DNA from: Roseateles sp.
GTDB lineage: Bacteria > Pseudomonadota > Gammaproteobacteria > Burkholderiales > Burkholderiaceae_C
Direction of reading: 5' to 3'
Length of the DNA stretch: 64,000 nt
NCBI GenBank assembly: GCA_016790285.1
Contig: JAEUPJ010000039.1
Span: forward strand, 1-64,000
Part shown: one piece after another, positions 7,646-60,416 of the stretch
Layout: each line of letters begins with the position of its first letter
Numbering within the stretch: the first letter of the stretch is position 1
Notes under the pieces: model-generated
The model's input: only the letters and a program-made list of their open reading frames with translations
What the model was told of the DNA's origin: nothing
Databases searched by the model: none
Position numbers and translations under genes: made by a program

Positions 7646-8140
7646 TCAGTCGTCCATGCCAGGCAAAAGGCTGGGAAACACCATGCTCTGCGTTGTGCGC
7701 ACGACGACACCGTCCTTGAAGTGAACGTTGAAGCGCATGCCGTAGCCGGTCTGGTCGGGCTCGATGGTCCAGTCCCAGACGTCTTCGCCGCTGTTGCGGA
7801 AGAACACGCGGCTGCGCTCACGGCCCAGCAGGCGGCTGACCTGCTCGGGCGTCATGCCGGGCACCACGCGCGCCCGGCCGGCCGGCGAGAGGCCGTCGAC
7901 CACGGACACCAGCCGCCCGTCGGCCGATAGCCTCACCATCCAGGCGTGGCGCCCCATGGGCTGGGTCGTGTACTCCAGTGTGCGCCCGCCGTCGGCGTCG
8001 GGCCAGACGCGCCCCGGGGCGCCGTACAGGGCCACCACGTCCGCCTCGCGGCTGCTGCCGGGCTGCAGGCGTGCATCGCGGTCGGGCGTTGCGCAGCCGG
8101 CCAGCAGCGTGAAGCAAAGGGCGAGGGCGGTCAGGCGCAT
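7646..8140 (-). CDS. Lipoprotein with SmpA/BamE-like fold
   Basis: 164-residue predicted lipoprotein. The signal peptide ends in a lipobox (TLLAGC, Cys at about residue 15). The mature part has two weakly repeated halves, each with a short helix-turn resembling the SmpA/OmlA/BamE motif: PGSSREADVVALYGAPGRVW and PGMTPEQVSRLLGRERSRVF, followed by WDWTIEP and MRFNVHFKDGVV strands. A two-copy arrangement is unlike BamE itself, so it is more likely a BamE-fold paralogue than the assembly factor. Its start is 6 bases from the pyrD stop, so the two may be co-transcribed. Confidence 0.8.
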   Translation of the reverse strand: MRLTALALCFTLLAGCATPDRDARLQPGSSREADVVALYGAPGRVWPDADGGRTLEYTTQPMGRHAWMVRLSADGRLVSVVDGLSPAGRARVVPGMTPEQVSRLLGRERSRVFFRNSGEDVWDWTIEPDQTGYGMRFNVHFKDGVVVRTTQSMVFPSLLPGMDD

Positions 8141-52545: not shown

Positions 52546-52668
52546 CGGGCGCAGCCGCGCGCTTCCATTCCCCGTTTCACACGGCCTGTCGCTCTGCCTC
52601 AGGCCGATTTGCTTTGCGCGAACACTCGGTTTGCGCGCCGGGAAGGCATCGCTTCACTTCGTAAAAAG

Positions 52669-52684
52669 GATACAAAGTGTCCAC
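52669..52684. promoter_or_regulatory. 16-base dyad element, copy 1 (hydrolase promoter)
   Basis: GATACAAAGTGTCCAC, 48 bases before the start of the secreted hydrolase. It matches three other copies near the TonB receptor. It overlaps CCACAATGTGG (52681-52691), a perfect odd palindrome. The core ACA-N3-TGT gives it dyad symmetry, as for TetR-type operators. The nearby AT-rich stretch GTAAAAAGGATACAAAG could contain the promoter -10 region, so a bound protein would interfere with RNA polymerase. Confidence 0.65.
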
Positions 52685-52732
52685 AATGTGGTTCAGAATG
52701 ACCAGACTGACCCACTTTGGAGGAATCAAGTC

Positions 52733-53974
52733 ATGCGTTGGATGAATCGAACCGGTTCACCGGGCAACAGGTTGAATCTGCTGATATCACCGCTGCTGGC
52801 CCTGGCGCTGGGCGCGGGCGCGGCGAATGCGCAGTTGAACAACGTCGAGCCAGCCTTGGGCGAATCTGTGGTCTTTATTGCTCCAAAAGCTGCCGGGCAG
52901 CCGCAACTCGAGGTGTCGCTGTTCAGCAGCCCCAACCCTGAACTCGCCCGGCCGCTGGTGGTGCTCAACCACGGCATGGCCCCGGGTGGCCCGCGCTGGA
53001 ACCCGCGCTACCGGCCGGACACCTTGATCCGCTACTTCACGTCGCGCGGCTACGTGGTGGCTGCGCCCATGCGCGCCGGCTACGCCGATTCCAGCGGTGT
53101 GCCGAACGACCCGTACTGCGCCGCGACCTACGACTTCGCACAGAGGGAAGCCGAGAGCGTCCGCCAGGCCGTGGACTACCTGGTCGCGCAACCGGGCTTG
53201 CGCGTTGACCCAAAGCGTGTGGTCGTGGTTGGGCATTCGGCGGGCGGGCTCGCCTCGTTGGCCTACGCCGCACGGCCGGCAGCCGGCGTGCGAGGCGTCA
53301 TCAACCTGGCCGGCGGCTGGCGCGCCTCCGCCAATGTGGGCTGGTGTGACTGGAGTGCACGCGCCGCGAGCGCTTGGCAGCGCCTGGGCCTGCAGGTGCG
53401 GGTGCCGAGCCTGTGGCAGTACGCGAGCAACGACACCGACTTCTTCCCGAGCAACCTCGCGCGCAATTGGGTCCAGGCCTATGCCAGTGGCGGCGCGCCC
53501 GTCACCTTCGTCTCTCTGGACAACGTGGACACCCGCCGCGTGGCGGCCCACGTGCTCTGGGAGGACCAGCCGAACATGGATCGCGCGGCGCCCGACCTGG
53601 ACCGGTTCCTCGTCTCGCTGGGGCTGCCTGCCGCTCCGCTGTGGGCCTCGCCCCAGGGCGGCAATGACCCCTGGCCGGCGGGCAGCTCGCCCTCGCAGCT
53701 GTCCGACCTGACGGCCGCCTCGACGCTGCCGATGCCGGCCTCCACCAGCGCGCAGCAAGGGTTCGAGGACTTCAAGCGCCTGCCACAGCGGCCCCGGGCC
53801 TTCGTGATGTCGCTGGACGGCAACTGGTTCTTCTATCGCTCCGGGAGTTTTCGCCCGGCCAACGAGATGCTGCGCACCTGCCGGCAGGCCGCCAACATGC
53901 CCTGCCGCGTGATCGCCCAGGGAGAGAAGATGGCCTACCCGCTCAACTTGACGGAGCCCAACGACACGCCCTGA
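52733..53974 (+). CDS. Secreted alpha/beta hydrolase
   Basis: 413 residues from ATG 52733 (GGAGGAA 7-8 bases upstream). Signal peptide ends near GAANAQ (about residue 34). Alpha/beta-hydrolase fold with PLVVLNHGMAPGG (oxyanion region), RGYVVAAPMRAGYADS, nucleophile Ser169 in VVVGHSAGGLASLAYAA, and an acidic residue near DNVDTRR. Matches the dienelactone-hydrolase/acetyl-xylan-esterase side of the family. The last roughly 60 residues (FEDFKRLPQRPRAFVMSL to LNLTEPNDTP) form a separate small unit. Substrate unknown; sharing a promoter element with a TonB receptor suggests it prepares a ligand for uptake. Confidence 0.88.
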   Translation: MRWMNRTGSPGNRLNLLISPLLALALGAGAANAQLNNVEPALGESVVFIAPKAAGQPQLEVSLFSSPNPELARPLVVLNHGMAPGGPRWNPRYRPDTLIRYFTSRGYVVAAPMRAGYADSSGVPNDPYCAATYDFAQREAESVRQAVDYLVAQPGLRVDPKRVVVVGHSAGGLASLAYAARPAAGVRGVINLAGGWRASANVGWCDWSARAASAWQRLGLQVRVPSLWQYASNDTDFFPSNLARNWVQAYASGGAPVTFVSLDNVDTRRVAAHVLWEDQPNMDRAAPDLDRFLVSLGLPAAPLWASPQGGNDPWPAGSSPSQLSDLTAASTLPMPASTSAQQGFEDFKRLPQRPRAFVMSLDGNWFFYRSGSFRPANEMLRTCRQAANMPCRVIAQGEKMAYPLNLTEPNDTP

Positions 53975-53980
53975 CCAGGG

Positions 53981-54853
53981 TCAGGCCGCTCCCGGCGCCG
54001 GTGCTTCGCCGGTGCCGGCGGCGGCGCCCGGGCCCATCAGGCCCGGGTCCTGGTGGCCGTCGGCCTGGTAGGTGCCGAAGCCCACCATGATGCGTCGCGA
54101 CGCACCCTCGCGATGGCCGTCCAGCGCCTCGCGCTCCACCACCAGCCGGTTCAGCCGGTTCATCAGCTGAACGCCTTCGCGCTGTGCGGTCGAGCAGATC
54201 AGGTGGGCCGATTCCTCGGTCAGCCGATGCCCATAGACCACGTTGAAGCCGAAGCCCGGGATGGGCTGTTCGTGCAGGTAGACCTGGTCGAAACCGTTGA
54301 GCAGGTCGGCCACCATCTCGCTGAGCAGCAGTCCGGTGCCCGCGGCACCTTCGACGACGCCGGTGGAGCGCCGCTGCACCAGCACCACGCGGTCATGCTC
54401 GTCCAGCGCGACGAAGCCCTTGCGCAGCCATTCATCGAGCAGCGCGCGGGCACGGATGTCCTTGTTGACGCGCTCCACCAGCGCCTCGAACGAGCGGGCG
54501 CCGCCCTGGCGCTGGGTGCGGGGCAGGGGAAGCATGTCGCCGTTGGCGTCCATGAAGTCCAGCGACGAGGTCCAGGCGTCCAGCACCAGGCGCTCGATGC
54601 TCGGGCGCGGGGCGGGCGGGGCGTCGGCACTCTCGCGCAGGGCGCGCACCTCACGGCGCGGCAGGCCGGTGAGCAGGCTCACGCGGCTGTCGGAGTTGGG
54701 CTTGCCCTTGACGGGCTCGAACTCCGTGGCGACCTCGAAGTAGACCGATCGCAGCAGCTTGCAGAAGGCCTGGTAGGTGATGCCGCTGGAGATGGCGATG
54801 CGCACCAGTCGGCGGAGCAGGTAGCGCAGCAGGGGCGAGAAATCGAAGTGCAT
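53981..54853 (-). CDS. DUF6502-family protein
   Basis: 290 residues. The start matches the DUF6502 pattern: LLRRLVRIAISSGITYQAFCKLLRSVYFEVA, then SDSRVSLLTGLPRREVRAL, which looks like a helix-turn-helix. It has SSLDFMDANGDMLPLP and a long helical C-terminal part ending in a Gly/Pro/Ala tail. No signal peptide or membrane segment. A DNA-binding role is suggested by the HTH-like start but is not shown. Convergent with the hydrolase (6 bases between stops) and downstream of the TonB receptor. Confidence 0.85.
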   Translation of the reverse strand: MHFDFSPLLRYLLRRLVRIAISSGITYQAFCKLLRSVYFEVATEFEPVKGKPNSDSRVSLLTGLPRREVRALRESADAPPAPRPSIERLVLDAWTSSLDFMDANGDMLPLPRTQRQGGARSFEALVERVNKDIRARALLDEWLRKGFVALDEHDRVVLVQRRSTGVVEGAAGTGLLLSEMVADLLNGFDQVYLHEQPIPGFGFNVVYGHRLTEESAHLICSTAQREGVQLMNRLNRLVVEREALDGHREGASRRIMVGFGTYQADGHQDPGLMGPGAAAGTGEAPAPGAA

Positions 54854-54881
54854 GCAAGGGCCGCCGAGCGGGGCGGGCAGG

Positions 54882-54916
54882 GGTGGCGGGGCCAGCCCCC
54901 ATTCTGGCCCGCCACC
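54882..54916. other. Long hairpin between the TonB receptor and the DUF6502 gene
   Basis: GGTGGCGGGGCCAG pairs with CTGGCCCGCCACC (13 pairs with one bulged G) around an 8-base loop. No T-tract follows on either strand, so it is not a standard terminator. On the minus strand it lies 30 bases after the receptor stop and before the DUF6502 start. It might protect the receptor mRNA 3' end or reduce read-through. Confidence 0.5.
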
Positions 54917-54946
54917 ACGGCGGCGGGTCAGGTGGTCGCCCCAGGG

Positions 54947-57709
54947 TCAGAACGTGTGCCGTGCCGACACCGCCAGCTGCCGGCCCGCGGGCGAGTACCA
55001 GTAGGTGTTGCCCGTCGGCGCGGTCGGGGTGAACGGCATGCGGGCGTTGGTGACGTTGAGCAGGTTCACGCGCACCGTCCAGTCCTTGCCGGCGCTGTAG
55101 GCCGCCGCCAGGTCCAGCGTCGTGTAAGGCGCAACGTTGCAACTGCCCAGGTAGCGCGTGCCGGTGCAGGTCTGGCCCGCCTGCGTCGACGCGAAACCCG
55201 ACAGATGGTTGATCGCGGCGTTGAGGTCCCACGGGCCGGGCGACCAGCCGAAGTTGACGCTGCCGCGCAGGCGCGGGTTGCCGAGTGTTCCGGTGCGGAC
55301 CTCCCATGCGGCGTCCAGCGTGCTCTGCACGCGGAAGCGGTCCACGTAGGTCATGTCCACCCGGACCCGCAGCGGCGCCGTGCCCGGCAGCGGCAGGCGG
55401 GAGTCGAGCGTCACGTCGACGCCGCGCACTTGCGTGCGGCCCTGGTTCAGGTAGAGCTGGTCCACCGTCGAGATGCGGCCTGCAATGGACTGGCCGGGCA
55501 CGCTCTCGGTGTCCAGCGGCAGGCGGTGCACGCGGCCGGCGTACAGCGGGTTGCTGCTGCCCTCGTTGTCGATCAGCAGCTGCTGGTCGACGAAGGTGAT
55601 CTCGTTCTTGCGACGGAACTCCCAGTAGTCGACCGTGAGCGTCATGTCGCGCAGCGGCTCGGCCACGAGGCCCAGCGCATAGGCGGTGGAGCGCTCGGGC
55701 TTGAGGTCCTTGTTGGCCTTCACGACGCCGCTGTTGTTGTAGCCGTCGCAGTCCACGTTGAACTGGCCGCAGCGCAGCGGGTCGAAGTCCACGGACGAGA
55801 ACAGCGGCGTGTCGGAGCTGGCGGATTCGTTGAGGGACGGCGCCCGAAAGCCGCGCGACACGCTGCCGCGCAGCTTGAGCTGCCGCACGGGCGTCCACGC
55901 GACTGCCAGCTTGGGTGTGACGGAGGAGCCGTAGTCGGAGTAGTGGTCCGCGCGCAGCGCGAGCTGCGACTGCAGCGTCTTGGTGAAGGGCAGGCTCAGT
56001 TCGGTGAAGGCGGACATCACGTTGCGGCTGCCCTCGGTGCGGCCGGCCACCTGCAGGTACACACCGCCCGAGTAGATGCGGTCGTCCGGGTGGTAGTTGC
56101 GCTCTTCATGGCGCGCCTCGGCACCCGCGGCCACCGCGATCGGGCCACCGGGCAGCCGGCCGATCTCGCCGCTGACCTTGGCATCCACCATGGTGAACGA
56201 AGCGCGGCCGTGGTCGATCGGGTTGATGCGCAATTGCGCCGCCGTGACCTTGCCCTGGCTCGGGTGCTCGAAGTCGTAGGTGCCGTTGAGCACCGCATCG
56301 CGCAGCACGGGCAGGCTGATTCGATTCAGGTAGGACACCTCGGCCGTGTCCTGCGCATGCATGAGGGCGGTCTCCCACTCCCAGCCGCTTGTTGCGCCGC
56401 GCACGCCCACGAGCAGGCGACCCGACTGGTTGGTGACGTCGATGCCCTGCTTGCCCACGTCGGCAAACGAGTAGGTGATGCCGGCGGGTTGGCCGGGGAA
56501 GGGGTTGTTCGGGTGGCCCGCCGGCAGGTACTGCGGCACGAAGGCGACGCCGCCATCGCGGCCGTTGGGCGTGGCGCCAAGGCCTGCGCCGAAAGGCACC
56601 GCCCAGTCGCGCTGGTGGTTGGTGAGCCGGTTCAGCGACAGCTCGCCGAACAACGACGTGCCGCCCCCCAGCGCCAGCTCTGCACGGCTGAAGACGGCTG
56701 TGCGCTGCTGCGGCGAGACGTACTGCGCCGCGTCCGTCCAGTAGCTGTAGCCGCACAGGTTCAGGGCCGGGGTGAAGGTGCTGTTGAACGCCCAGCGCTG
56801 GTCGGCGGGGCAGTTGGGCGACGAGCGGCCACTGCGAGTGTTCACGAAGGAGGCGCCCGACTGGTCATCGAACGACACGCCGCCGTAGTAGTTCGGTGTC
56901 GGTGAGAAGCGGCTCGTGCCGGGCCGGCCCGTGTAGTAGAACGAGGTGTCGCGGTGGCGGGGGTCGATCACGCGGTCTGCGACGTCGCGCAGCATCACCT
57001 CGTCGCGGTGAAACAGGTCCAGCGTGGCCATCCAGTTCCAGCCATCACGCATCAGGTCGCCGCGGCCCACGGTCACCGCGGCAGATTGCGTGCCGAAGCC
57101 GCCATCGACGCTTGTGCGCATCTGCGCACCGGCCTCGGCGCCTTGGAAGTCGCTGCGCAGGATCAGGTTGACGACGCCCGCCATCGCGTCCGAGCCATAG
57201 ATGGCCGATGCGCCGTCCTTCAGCACCTCGATGCGCTGGATGGCTGCACTCGGAATGGCGTCGATGTTGACGAAGTTGGTCCGCCCGTTGTTGATATCGG
57301 GCACGCTGTAGGGCACCACGCGCCGGCCGTTGACCAGCACGAGCGTGGCCGTAGGCCCAAGGCTGCGCAGCGAGATGCCGGCCGCGCCGTAGGCGAAGCT
57401 GTTGAAGGAGTTGGCGTCGGTCAAGCCGTTGGCGCCATTGGCCGAGAGGGTCTGCAGCACCTCCGTCACCGAGGCTTTCCCGCTGCGCCGGATGTCCTCG
57501 GCGGTGATGACCTGCACCGGCAGGGCGGTTTCCGCGTCCACGCGGCGGATGTTGGAGCCCGTCACCAGGATGCGTTCCAGCTTGGCGGGCTCGGCGGCTT
57601 CGGTGCCTGGACTCGGGGCCTGAGCCTGGGCTTGAGCCAGGTGGCAGCACAGCGCTGCGGCCAGCGCCAAGCCGTGTCGAGGAATTCGGCACCCGTGATT
57701 GCGATTCAT
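54947..57709 (-). CDS. TonB-dependent outer-membrane receptor
   Basis: 920 residues from ATG 57709 (GGAGGG upstream). Signal peptide ends near AQAQA (about residue 35). Plug domain from [36 protein letters not shown] (positions about 47-85) through [17 protein letters not shown] and [28 protein letters not shown]-type motifs, then a 22-strand barrel with [13 protein letters not shown] and [14 protein letters not shown], ending in the OmpA-like final aromatic VSARHTF. This Ser/Asn-rich, [14 protein letters not shown] type resembles receptors for carbohydrates or other organics rather than siderophores. Two dyad elements lie in its promoter region. Confidence 0.93.
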   Translation of the reverse strand: [920 protein letters not shown]

Positions 57710-57773
57710 GACTTGCCCTCCGCGCCCCTGGGCGCTCCACCGTGGCAGCACGACCCCCACCCCAGGGGTCAAT

Positions 57774-57820
57774 GAGACAAACTGTCCACGCTTTTGGGAA
57801 GTGTGAGACGAAATGTCCAC
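57774..57820. promoter_or_regulatory. 16-base dyad element, copies 2 and 3 (TonB receptor promoter)
   Basis: GAGACAAACTGTCCAC at 57774-57789 and GAGACGAAATGTCCAC at 57805-57820. They are direct repeats with starts 31 bases apart, close to three helical turns, so bound dimers would face the same side. Copy 2 has a perfect GACA-N3-TGTC dyad; copy 3 is GAC-N5-GTC. They are 65-111 bases upstream of the receptor start codon. Together with copies 1 and 4 they define GA[TG]AC[AG]AAN[TC]GTCCAC. Confidence 0.7.
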
Positions 57821-57920
57821 TCCGCGTGGCGGGAGGAACCCTAGGGGCCGGGAGGCTTCGTCAAAAGGAGGAGGTGCGGCGAATCGACCCGGGCGAGGGC
57901 GACAACAATGGTGCGTGCTG

Positions 57921-57950
57921 AAAAGAAAACCGCCCCGGGGTGGGGCGGTT
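57921..57950 (-). terminator. Rho-independent terminator of the FKBP gene
   Basis: Perfect 9-base-pair stem AACCGCCCC/GGGGCGGTT with a 5-base loop (57928-57950), followed on the minus strand by TTCTTTTC. It lies about 100 bases after the FKBP stop and upstream of the TonB receptor promoter region. Confidence 0.75.
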
Positions 57951-58013
57951 GTCTCGTGCGGGTATCAGGGGTGGTGCGAACGGGCGCATCAGGCACCCCT
58001 CAGCGATTCGTGT

Positions 58014-58029
58014 GATACGAATCGTCCAC
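58014..58029. promoter_or_regulatory. 16-base dyad element, copy 4
   Basis: GATACGAATCGTCCAC, with a perfect ACG-N3-CGT core, 24 bases past the FKBP stop and about 305 bases upstream of the TonB receptor start. Closest to copy 1 at its 5' end (GATAC). It may be a distal site looping to copies 2 and 3. Confidence 0.6.
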
Positions 58030-58053: not shown

Positions 58054-58776
58054 TCAAACGGCCAGCAGGTCCACTTCGAACAGCAGCGTGGCGTTCGGCG
58101 GAATGACGCCGCCGGCCCCGTGGGCGCCATAGCCCAGCTCCGGCGGCAGCACGAGCATGCGCGTGCCACCCACCTTCATGCCTTGCACGCCTTCGTCCCA
58201 GCCCTGGATGACCTCGCCGCCGCCCAGGCGGAACTTGAACGGCTGGCCGCGGTCCTTGCTGGAATCGAACTTCTTGCCGCGCAGGCCGTCCTTGTAGAGC
58301 CAGCCCGTGTAGTGCACCGACACGCGTTGGCCCTTGGCCGCTTCGGCGCCGTCGCCGACGACGCGGTCCTCGTACTGCAGGCCGCTGGAGGTGGTGTGCA
58401 GGTTGAGCTCGACGGGCTCGGGGCCGCCGGCCAGGCCGAGCAGCTCGACCTCGAAGCACAGCGTGGCGTTGGGCGGGATGACGCCACCCGCACCGCGCGC
58501 GCCGTAGCCCAGGGCGGCGGGGATGATCAGCGTGCGCTTGCCGCCGATCTTCATGCCCTGCACGCCTTCGTCCCAGCCGCGGATGACCATGCCGGCGCCG
58601 AGCTCGAACTCGAACGGGTCACGGCGGTCCAGGCTGGAGTCGAACTTGGCAGCCTTGGCGCCGTCCACCCACAGCCAGCCGGTGTAGTGCACGGTCACGT
58701 CATGGCCGGCCGCCGCCTGCTTGCCGTCGCCTTCGACGGTGTCTTCGTACTGCAGGCCGCTGGGCGTCGTGTTCAT
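58054..58776 (-). CDS. Tandem-domain FKBP-type peptidyl-prolyl isomerase
   Basis: 240 residues from ATG 58776 (AAGGA upstream). Two complete FKBP domains in one chain, residues about 1-118 and 124-240. Each has SGLQYED, VTVHYTGWL or VSVHYTGWL, FDSS, VIRGWDEGVQGMK or VIQGWDEGVQGMK, and GYGA..GAGGVIPPNATL. No signal peptide, so cytoplasmic. Most bacterial FKBPs carry one domain; the two here are about half identical and arose by internal duplication. Catalyses proline isomerisation in folding; the doubled form may bind two client sites. Confidence 0.92.
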   Translation of the reverse strand: MNTTPSGLQYEDTVEGDGKQAAAGHDVTVHYTGWLWVDGAKAAKFDSSLDRRDPFEFELGAGMVIRGWDEGVQGMKIGGKRTLIIPAALGYGARGAGGVIPPNATLCFEVELLGLAGGPEPVELNLHTTSSGLQYEDRVVGDGAEAAKGQRVSVHYTGWLYKDGLRGKKFDSSKDRGQPFKFRLGGGEVIQGWDEGVQGMKVGGTRMLVLPPELGYGAHGAGGVIPPNATLLFEVDLLAV

Positions 58777-58967: not shown

Positions 58968-59630
58968 ATGGTCACGGCAGGGTGTTGGTTGCGAGCGGGG
59001 CATCGGGTCGCCCGGAATGTGGCGGGCGGTGTGGTTGCAGCCGCGCTGGCGGCGTCGGCAGCGGCGCAGGGCCTCACCACGGTCAGCTTCGACTCCCTGC
59101 GCGCAGGCCCTTTCTCGAGCTACATCGAGGACGGCTTTGTCGTCACAGCCCTGACCAGCAACTGGAAGCGCGACCGGAACCAGGTCCGAAACGGCACAGC
59201 CGACTATTGGCTGGCGGTCAACAACAGAGGTGTTGCCGAGCTGTCTGTCACTCACGGCGGCGATCTCTTCCAGTTCACCAGCGTCGGGCTCTATTCCCTC
59301 CTGACGACCATCCCCTACGAAATCCGCGGCTATCGGGCCGGGCAACTTGTCTTCGAGCGTGCCGCGGCAGAGCCCCGTGGCCAGAGCTCCTTCGTGCAGG
59401 TCGCCTCGTCGTCCTCAGCCTTCATCGACCAGTTGACCGTGAGACTGACCAACACGGTGGCCTTCAACGACATGGCTCTGGACAACCTGTCGTTCAACGT
59501 CGTCTCCGTCGTGCCCGAGCCGCCGGTGTGGCTTCTGGGGGTGGCCGGCGTCGCGGTCCTTGTGGGCCGGCGCTCAGCGCGAAACCGCCGGGCGGGTGCT
59601 CAGCCCGGTGCGCGCGTCCGTCAACCCTGA
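58968..59630 (+). CDS. PEP-CTERM sorting-domain protein
   Basis: 220 residues; GAGGA 7 bases before the ATG. Signal sequence MVTAGCWLRAGHRVARNVAGGVVAAALAASAAAQ (positions 1-34). The body (TTVSFDSLRAGPFSSYIEDGFVVTA, FTSVGLYSLL, YEIRGYRAGQLVFERA, DNLSFNVV) is a jelly-roll of the NPCBM/DUF-like kind often found in PEP-CTERM proteins. Sorting signal SVVPEPPVWLLGVAGVAVLVGRRSARNRR is followed by about 14 more residues, a longer basic tail than usual. Confidence 0.85.
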   Translation: MVTAGCWLRAGHRVARNVAGGVVAAALAASAAAQGLTTVSFDSLRAGPFSSYIEDGFVVTALTSNWKRDRNQVRNGTADYWLAVNNRGVAELSVTHGGDLFQFTSVGLYSLLTTIPYEIRGYRAGQLVFERAAAEPRGQSSFVQVASSSSAFIDQLTVRLTNTVAFNDMALDNLSFNVVSVVPEPPVWLLGVAGVAVLVGRRSARNRRAGAQPGARVRQP

Positions 59631-59648: not shown

Positions 59649-60416
59649 TCACATGGGCTTGAAGCGCGATTGGTAGTTCTGGCTCACCGGCAGGCGCACG
59701 TCGCTGCCCTTGAGGTGAACCTCCATGCCGGTCAGGCGCCGCTCCAGGCGGGCCACGTGGGCGAGGTTGATGATGACGGCGCGATGGATCTGCCAGAACT
59801 GCTCGGGGTCGAGCTGGGTCAGCAGCTCACGCAGCGAAAGCCGCAGCAGGAATTCGCCTTCTGCCGTGACGGCGCAGGTGTATTTGTTGTCGCTGCGGAA
59901 GTGGGTCACGTCGGCCGTCATCACGAGGTGCAGCCGCTCACCTTGCGAGGCCTGCAGCCAGCGCAGCGGCGCGCTGGCCGGCGCAGGGCGGGCAGGTGCC
60001 AGCGCGGGCGGCGCCCACTGCTGAAGCCATTGCGCGAGCTGGGCCGGCGGCCATTGCAGGCGTTGCTGAAGGCGCTGTACGGTGTCGCGCAGTCGTGCTT
60101 CGGCAAGCGGCTTGAGCAGGTAGTCGATGGCACCGTGCTCAAAGGCCTGGACCGCGTGGGCGTCATATGCCGTCACGAACACGATGTGGGCCAAGCCCTT
60201 GAGGCGCCGCGCCAGCGAAAGGCCATCGAGCCCCGGCAGGCGGATGTCGACGAAGACGATGTCCGGCCGCAGGTCGAGGGCCAGAGCCAGGCCCTGGTCG
60301 CCATCCTCGGCCTCGGCCAGCAATTGCAGACTGGGCCACAGGCTGGCCAGGCCCTCCCGCAACCGCTGGCGGGGCAGGGCCTCGTCTTCAACGATGAGGG
60401 CAGTGACAGGCTTCAT
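59649..60416 (-). CDS. LytTR-family response regulator
   Basis: 255 residues. Receiver domain 1-120 with acidic pocket VEDEA and Asp57 (IVFVDIRLPGLDG), and Lys in LLKPLAE. C-terminal LytTR DNA-binding domain (about 155-255: GERLHLVMTADVTHFRSDNKYTC, EFWQIHRAVIINLAHV-like segment, MEVHLKGSDVRLPVSQNYQSRF). AlgR/LytR type. Overlaps the sensor kinase by 4 bases. Convergent with the PEP-CTERM gene at 58968. Confidence 0.94.
   Translation of the reverse strand: MKPVTALIVEDEALPRQRLREGLASLWPSLQLLAEAEDGDQGLALALDLRPDIVFVDIRLPGLDGLSLARRLKGLAHIVFVTAYDAHAVQAFEHGAIDYLLKPLAEARLRDTVQRLQQRLQWPPAQLAQWLQQWAPPALAPARPAPASAPLRWLQASQGERLHLVMTADVTHFRSDNKYTCAVTAEGEFLLRLSLRELLTQLDPEQFWQIHRAVIINLAHVARLERRLTGMEVHLKGSDVRLPVSQNYQSRFKPM

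Follow-up and report, generated by a model that had tools for sequence, protein, structure and literature searches.

Autoregulated one-component repressors such as those of the TetR and MarR type act through dyad operators and have their own operon and neighbouring genes as targets. Here, a similar organization is proposed for a locus in a stretch of 64,000 nucleotides of a Roseateles sp. genome (GCA_016790285.1, contig JAEUPJ010000039.1, positions 1 to 64,000; in the following, the window), which comprises genes for a TonB-dependent receptor, a DUF6502 protein and a secreted hydrolase, with four copies of one dyad upstream of the receptor and hydrolase genes. As judged from sequence comparison, the four dyads are very probably operators of the DUF6502 protein encoded at the same locus, which would control the receptor-DUF6502 operon and the hydrolase gene. 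DUF6502 (PF20112) is a family for which Pfam gives no function, and the window protein matches it along almost its entire length; in the openly licensed literature no paper naming DUF6502, PF20112 or the operator strings was found. The family appears to consist of DNA-binding proteins that regulate their own genes and are so far undescribed. As in TetR- and MarR-type repressors, dyad operators would serve the regulator's own operon and its neighbours, whereas DUF6502 differs in showing no model similarity above noise, in its length of 290 aa with a long C-terminal half and in its tandem operators of 17-18 bp. The features of the locus are given below; the cross-species matrix named there was built solely from the six sites of Roseateles puraquae (L051) and Pelomonas sp. 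Root1444 (L042) and was run on the 64-kb window.

52667..52684, minus strand: predicted operator H1, GTGGACACTTTGTATCCT, of the hydrolase promoter; the ATG at 52733 follows after about 50 bp (cross-species matrix)
52733..53974, plus strand: secreted alpha/beta hydrolase, 413 aa, proposed target (PF00561, E 6.1e-08; PF00326, E 8.4e-07)
53981..54853, minus strand: DUF6502 protein, 290 aa, second gene of the predicted receptor operon, proposed regulator (PF20112, E 8.9e-22)
54947..57709, minus strand: TonB-dependent receptor, 920 aa, first gene of the predicted operon, proposed target (PF00593, E 2e-40; PF07715, E 3.1e-20)
57772..57789, minus strand: predicted operator R1 in the receptor promoter, GTGGACAGTTTGTCTCAT, 31 bp from R2
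57803..57820, minus strand: predicted operator R2 in the receptor promoter, GTGGACATTTCGTCTCAC (pattern and cross-species matrix)
57928..57950, minus strand: terminator-like hairpin downstream of the FKBP gene, between R3 and R2 (one found; mean of shuffles 0.5)
58012..58029, minus strand: predicted distal operator R3, GTGGACGATTCGTATCAC, 209 bp upstream of R2 (pattern and cross-species matrix)

The 16-base consensus put forward in a sequence-only reading of this DNA, GAKACRAANYGTCCAC, has exact matches at 52669, 57774, 57805 and 58014, each of them on the plus strand of the window, against a mean of 0.00 matches in 100 shuffles. The spacing of 31 bases between two of the copies was also exact, and R1 and R2 are exactly 31 bp apart in Roseateles puraquae and Pelomonas sp. 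Root1444 as well. The same reading had described a 16-base unit in the promoter regions; the copies are there, but the shared unit is 18 bp long (GTGGACANTTYGTMTCAC on the minus strand), and the site at 58014 is situated 3' of the FKBP gene, between its stop codon and the terminator-like hairpin and 209 bp from the pair. The hydrolase gene and the DUF6502 gene are convergent, and the latter follows the receptor gene on the same strand. A signal peptide and a GHSAG motif were seen by eye in the hydrolase.

In scans of the whole assembly (5.88 Mb in 107 contigs, 95% complete), the looser pattern GANACRNNNYGTCCAC gave five matches, the four window sites and one on contig 17 that is without the AA core and inside an open frame of 556 codons (stop to stop). 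The longer pattern GTGGACNNNTYGTNTCAC gave 24 matches with up to two mismatches, against 30 for the reversed-pattern control; at zero or one mismatch it found the three receptor-side sites and one other, inside an open frame of 527 codons. The two off-locus matches are both inside long open frames, and the scan does not support a hidden regulon of genome-wide extent. Because the fitting copies in the assembly are confined to this locus, the motif is a predicted private operator set of one locus and not a genome-wide regulon. Across the family, the relaxed 16-mer had at least one match in 177 of 299 genomes, with the reversed-pattern control mostly equal or higher among the matches listed, which is background. 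The hydrolase site has two mismatches to GTGGACNNNTYGTNTCAC and by this pattern alone is indistinct from 20 other two-mismatch or background matches. The cross-species matrix ranks the four window sites 1 to 4 of the 64 kb (both strands), the hydrolase site being fourth with 19.2 bits against 11.5 bits for the best non-site. This rank is the strongest single support for the predicted hydrolase operator.

Using the DUF6502 protein, a scan of named genomes yielded five loci: L051 (Roseateles puraquae), L048 (Pelomonas sp. Root1444, on the same contig as L042), L049 (a Methylibium metagenome-assembled genome, MAG), L047 (a MAG labelled Methylotenera) and L050 (Parachitinimonas caeni, DUF6502 39% identical). 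The receptor promoters of L051 and L042 contain the same three boxes, the distal one being 200 and 236 bp upstream, respectively (209 bp in the window), and in the Methylibium MAG the distal box is 210 bp upstream. Within the clade of the window, sites at the receptor-DUF6502 gene pair are therefore present in four genomes with a conserved layout, that is, the receptor sites are kept in three other genomes, in one of them in weaker form. Of nine window genes compared with the 15.8 kb of the Methylibium locus, only three recurred: the receptor gene, the DUF6502 gene and, as a distant homologue with 35% identity over 373 alignment columns, the hydrolase gene. There, the gene order is receptor, DUF6502, tricorn-type protease (PF03572, PF14684, PF14685), hydrolase and family-5 solute-binding protein, with an OppC-type permease further on. 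A hydrolase of this type is thus, as read from the gene order, joined to receptor and DUF6502 in two different arrangements, in line with the earlier proposal that a shared operator links hydrolase and receptor. That proposal had also named an ester-type substrate. The tricorn-type protease, the family-5 binding protein and the OppC permease of the Methylibium operon suggest peptides rather than simple esters. Receptors at least 70% identical occurred in 3 of the 299 genomes of the family draw, and all three have a close DUF6502; among four receptor paralogues of 38-43% identity, none had a 12-bit site of either type in the stretches examined (best 11.1 and 11.4). The receptor, DUF6502 and downstream genes of the Methylibium MAG (L049, 7862-15598) are likely a peptide-uptake operon in their own right, and in Pelomonas sp. 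Root1444 the remnant of a second TonB receptor copy lies between the FKBP gene and the distal operator (L042, 3212-3556).

Beyond this clade, 78 DUF6502 loci were collected, of which 73 remained after the five of the window's clade had been left out. The order-wide search contributed 40 of its 44 hits outside the window and the phylum-wide search 20 of 23, the window, one locus already in the set and one close relative being omitted. A de novo palindrome search in 44 upstream regions, from which the window's clade was excluded for training, recovered the palindrome ACGTGGGAAAWTTTCCCACGT upstream of DUF6502 genes. Its better, odd form, AcGTGGGAAAwTTTCCCACgT, reached a log-likelihood of 314.5, compared with 40.9-49.6 in six shuffled sets of equal width and number of starts; the even form TGGGAAAATTTTCCCA reached 209.9 (42 to 48 in six shuffled sets with fewer starts). 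A 16-bp even form, TGGGAANNNNTTCCCA, represents a rarer spacing with 3 sites in 20 genomes, and the odd form fits better. With a threshold of 12 bits and the 400 bp upstream of the DUF6502 gene as the region, 54 of 73 loci contain a site (discovery loci, 32 of 45; phylum set, 14 of 20; further family loci, 8 of 8). As controls at this threshold, sites were found in 13 of 562 regions preceding other open frames of the 73 loci, in 8 of 1460 sequences obtained by shuffling the true upstream regions, and in 6 of 1310 windows drawn at random from other parts of the 78 loci. In the untrained loci, the best hit of the whole locus fell inside the 400 bp in 15 of 20 cases from the phylum-wide draw and 8 of 8 from the family draw, together 23 of 28, where about 3% would be expected by chance in each set. 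The phylum set consists of six loci from three genomes of the window's family, three loci from its class and eleven from the rest of the phylum. At least two sites of 8 bits are present in 35 of the 73 loci, and 27 of 48 spacings between neighbouring operators are 28-35 bp, which is the same architecture as the 31-bp pair of the window. The exact core TGGGAANNNTTCCCA has 14 sites in 40 genomes (30 with DUF6502 and 10 without a DUF6502 match), and 10 of them are within 335 bp upstream of a DUF6502 gene.

The usual DUF6502 locus is organized differently from that of the window, where the gene is preceded by that of a TonB receptor. In 26 of 50 DUF6502 loci, the gene that comes next on the same strand belongs to one BLAST-linked, DUF5666-like cluster, and Pfam names DUF5666 in representatives of three further loci. 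In draws of 250 genomes, DUF6502 was present in 38, DUF5666 in 33 and both in 23. Among 30 DUF5666 loci, those with a DUF6502 gene in the 2-3-kb stretch have the operator in 11 of 17 cases, and none of nine DUF5666 loci in genomes without DUF6502 has it (best 8.3 bits). Four further DUF5666 loci, in DUF6502-bearing genomes and with no DUF6502 in the 3-kb stretch, had no site either (0 of 4); they were not counted as controls because one of them, L205, has a DUF6502 gene just outside the stretch. The operator tracks DUF6502 over many genera, at least two classes and three kinds of partner, namely the DUF5666 protein, a subtilase and the receptor. A secreted subtilase-like protein is encoded after DUF6502, with an 18-bp-type operator in front, in L050 (9180-11090) and L120 (3125-5158). 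In L154 (3429-7489) DUF6502 lies between two look-alike, DUF5666-like genes, of which the upstream one alone was run against Pfam.

The window motif appears to be the family operator with one additional base pair of spacing. When one neutral column (8 or 13) was added to the family matrix, the window sites ranked 4, 1, 2 and 5 of about 128,000 positions; elsewhere the ranks were 7, 1 and 3 in L051, 5, 2 and 3 in L042, 1 and 3 in L049, and 1 in both L120 and L050. A neutral column anywhere from matrix column 4 to 17 gave median ranks of 2.5 to 5.5, so that one more base pair of spacing, and no special position, appears to be what matters. L050 and L120, which beside L168 are the nearest relatives in the tree, have sites of the same 18-bp type, and in the Methylibium MAG the site form is intermediate between the 17-bp and 18-bp types. 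In most of the family the presumed recognition helix is of the GVHRKDV type; L050 and L120 have GLSRRDV, and GLPRREV or GLPRRDV occurs in L168 and in the window's clade. The change in this helix accompanies that in operator type. We consider it likely that DUF6502 is an undescribed, Pseudomonadota-wide family of self-contained regulators with private tandem GTGGGAAAWTTTCCCAC operators at their own locus. Their specificity would drift with the recognition helix, in the window's clade together with the spacing by 1 bp. In one clade, this drift would have allowed first a TonB receptor and later a hydrolase to be captured, which together form a scavenging module.

In the sequence-only reading, no candidate regulator had been recognized in the window, and the sites were likened to TetR-type operators. 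The DUF6502 protein, for which that reading had noted an HTH-like start, is now the best candidate. It passes the PF20112 profile test (residues 9-265, 77.6 bits against a cut-off of 27), as do all 50 aligned relatives. A helix-turn-helix is presumed around residues 55-75, with the recognition helix GLPRREVR, followed by a winged-helix-like part presumed at about 85-160. Helices at 55-62 and 66-75 appear in two low-confidence AlphaFold models (six sequences; whole protein and N-terminal 165 residues). R66, which belongs to the presumed recognition helix, is conserved in 77 of 78 sequences and in all 50 of the smaller alignment. Pfam hits of 50 DUF6502 proteins, up to E 1, included no TetR DNA-binding model (25 of 28 families covered), so that the TetR assignment is not supported; one member had an EthR_C match at noise level (E 0.15). 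In NCBIfam, the 50 proteins matched 12 families, each in one member and at noise level (E 0.003-0.09); these families include a sigma factor and a transcriptional-regulator model. A search of solved structures with the 50-row alignment (50 of 78 sequences) was uninformative: up to E 10 it gave six distinct sequences, of which the top four were designed repeat-like proteins matched over the first 45 positions only (best E 7e-06). Homology to HetR, a regulator of differentiation in cyanobacteria, was suggested by VIA-align but found no support in profile comparison (hhalign probability 0.1).

Several observations weigh against this interpretation. The hydrolase site is known from one genome only, and L051 and L042 are without the hydrolase in the approximately 16 kb examined. 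The unmodified 17-bp family matrix ranks the window sites between 7 and 299 and finds no site upstream of the window DUF6502 gene itself, and the comparison with the extra base was made after looking at the window sites. In the Methylibium MAG, the sites are weaker (9.7, 14.7 and -4.1 bits) and the pair is 33 bp apart. L168, the nearest relative of the clade (53% identical), has neither site type near its DUF6502 gene, and on the metagenome contig L047 a 90% identical DUF6502 gene was kept though receptor and operators were lost. Across the family, 19 of 73 loci are below the 12-bit threshold, two of the 15 phylum-set best hits are under it (L166 with 5.4 and L169 with 11.5 bits), and the test loci are not fully independent because several share a genus. 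The AlphaFold models are poor (mean pLDDT 49.7 and 51.3), so the helix-turn-helix rests on the sequence pattern together with low-confidence helices. These points lower the certainty for single loci, not for the family-wide association.

In the proposed mechanism, the tandem pair R1-R2 and the distal R3 would control the promoter of the receptor-DUF6502 operon. As the DUF6502 gene is in the receptor operon under R1-R3, presumably on a shared transcript, the protein would regulate its own gene together with the receptor, and the single copy H1 would put the convergent hydrolase gene under the same protein. A spacing of 31 bp corresponds to about three helical turns, and R1 and R2 would thus be on one face of the DNA. 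Most likely, DUF6502 would act as a dimeric one-component regulator that binds cooperatively to this pair, and R3 would help by looping, with a loop of about 20 helical turns. A scan for sigma-70 promoters recognised nothing in the receptor and hydrolase promoters, so that geometry does not decide between activator and repressor; repression is somewhat favoured over activation. The preferred reading is that DUF6502 would repress its own gene until a nutrient is imported that relieves the repression. This nutrient is probably a peptide or an ester resembling one, and the effector would probably be bound by the C-terminal half of the protein.

An ordinary regulator encoded elsewhere, of the TetR, LysR or a similar family, might instead bind the sites, with DUF6502 being merely a co-regulated neighbour. 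Such a scheme would fit the Pfam and NCBIfam results, in which DUF6502 matched no DNA-binding family better than noise, and the presence in L047 of DUF6502 without the sites. We regard it as unlikely, since the operator tracks DUF6502 across many genera and three partner kinds and since its exact core is seldom met in other parts of these genomes. Even less probable is that DUF6502 acts with, or antagonises, a DNA-binding partner common to these bacteria. The low confidence of the N-terminal helix-turn-helix model and the lack of a solved structure leave some room for it, but the partner would be needed in all lineages, yet sites occur almost only where DUF6502 lies.

A LytTR response regulator is encoded at 59649-60416, 1.9 kb from the receptor start and with a kinase next door, and could bind the sites as direct repeats, given that all are in one orientation and that one half of them resembles LytTR/AlgR boxes. 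This is very improbable: L051, L042 and L049 keep the sites with no match to this regulator or kinase in their stretches of about 16 kb, and the family operators are palindromes. That the four copies reflect chance likeness or a dispersed repeat is the most remote of these explanations and is refuted by the counts: none is expected in shuffles, the four fitting copies in 5.88 Mb all lie before two genes, and the sites are conserved in other species. Control by the DUF6502 protein itself is thus the reading that we prefer. On this reading, DUF6502, for which no function has been assigned, would gain a role that can be tested and, in many species, a precise DNA target, and the tandem operators would keep such a test simple. 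The DUF5666 proteins, its usual partners and likewise of unknown function, would gain a candidate regulator. The reading would also define a small nutrient-uptake module of receptor, secreted hydrolase and regulator, the substrate of which could be found through what relieves the regulator.

Some minor features of the region were also noted. No RNA family was found in the window at the gathering threshold. The FKBP-like protein at 58054-58776 of the window appears by eye to be a tandem two-domain protein and is 93-97% identical in L051, L047 and L042. L047 has a Roseateles-like locus with DUF6502 directly after FKBP (7834-8001), and its Methylotenera label or its binning seems doubtful. Beside the LytTR regulator/kinase pair, which was recognized by eye, positions 58968-59630 of the window encode a small exported protein; its C-terminus has a VPEP motif that, likewise by eye, is PEP-CTERM-like.

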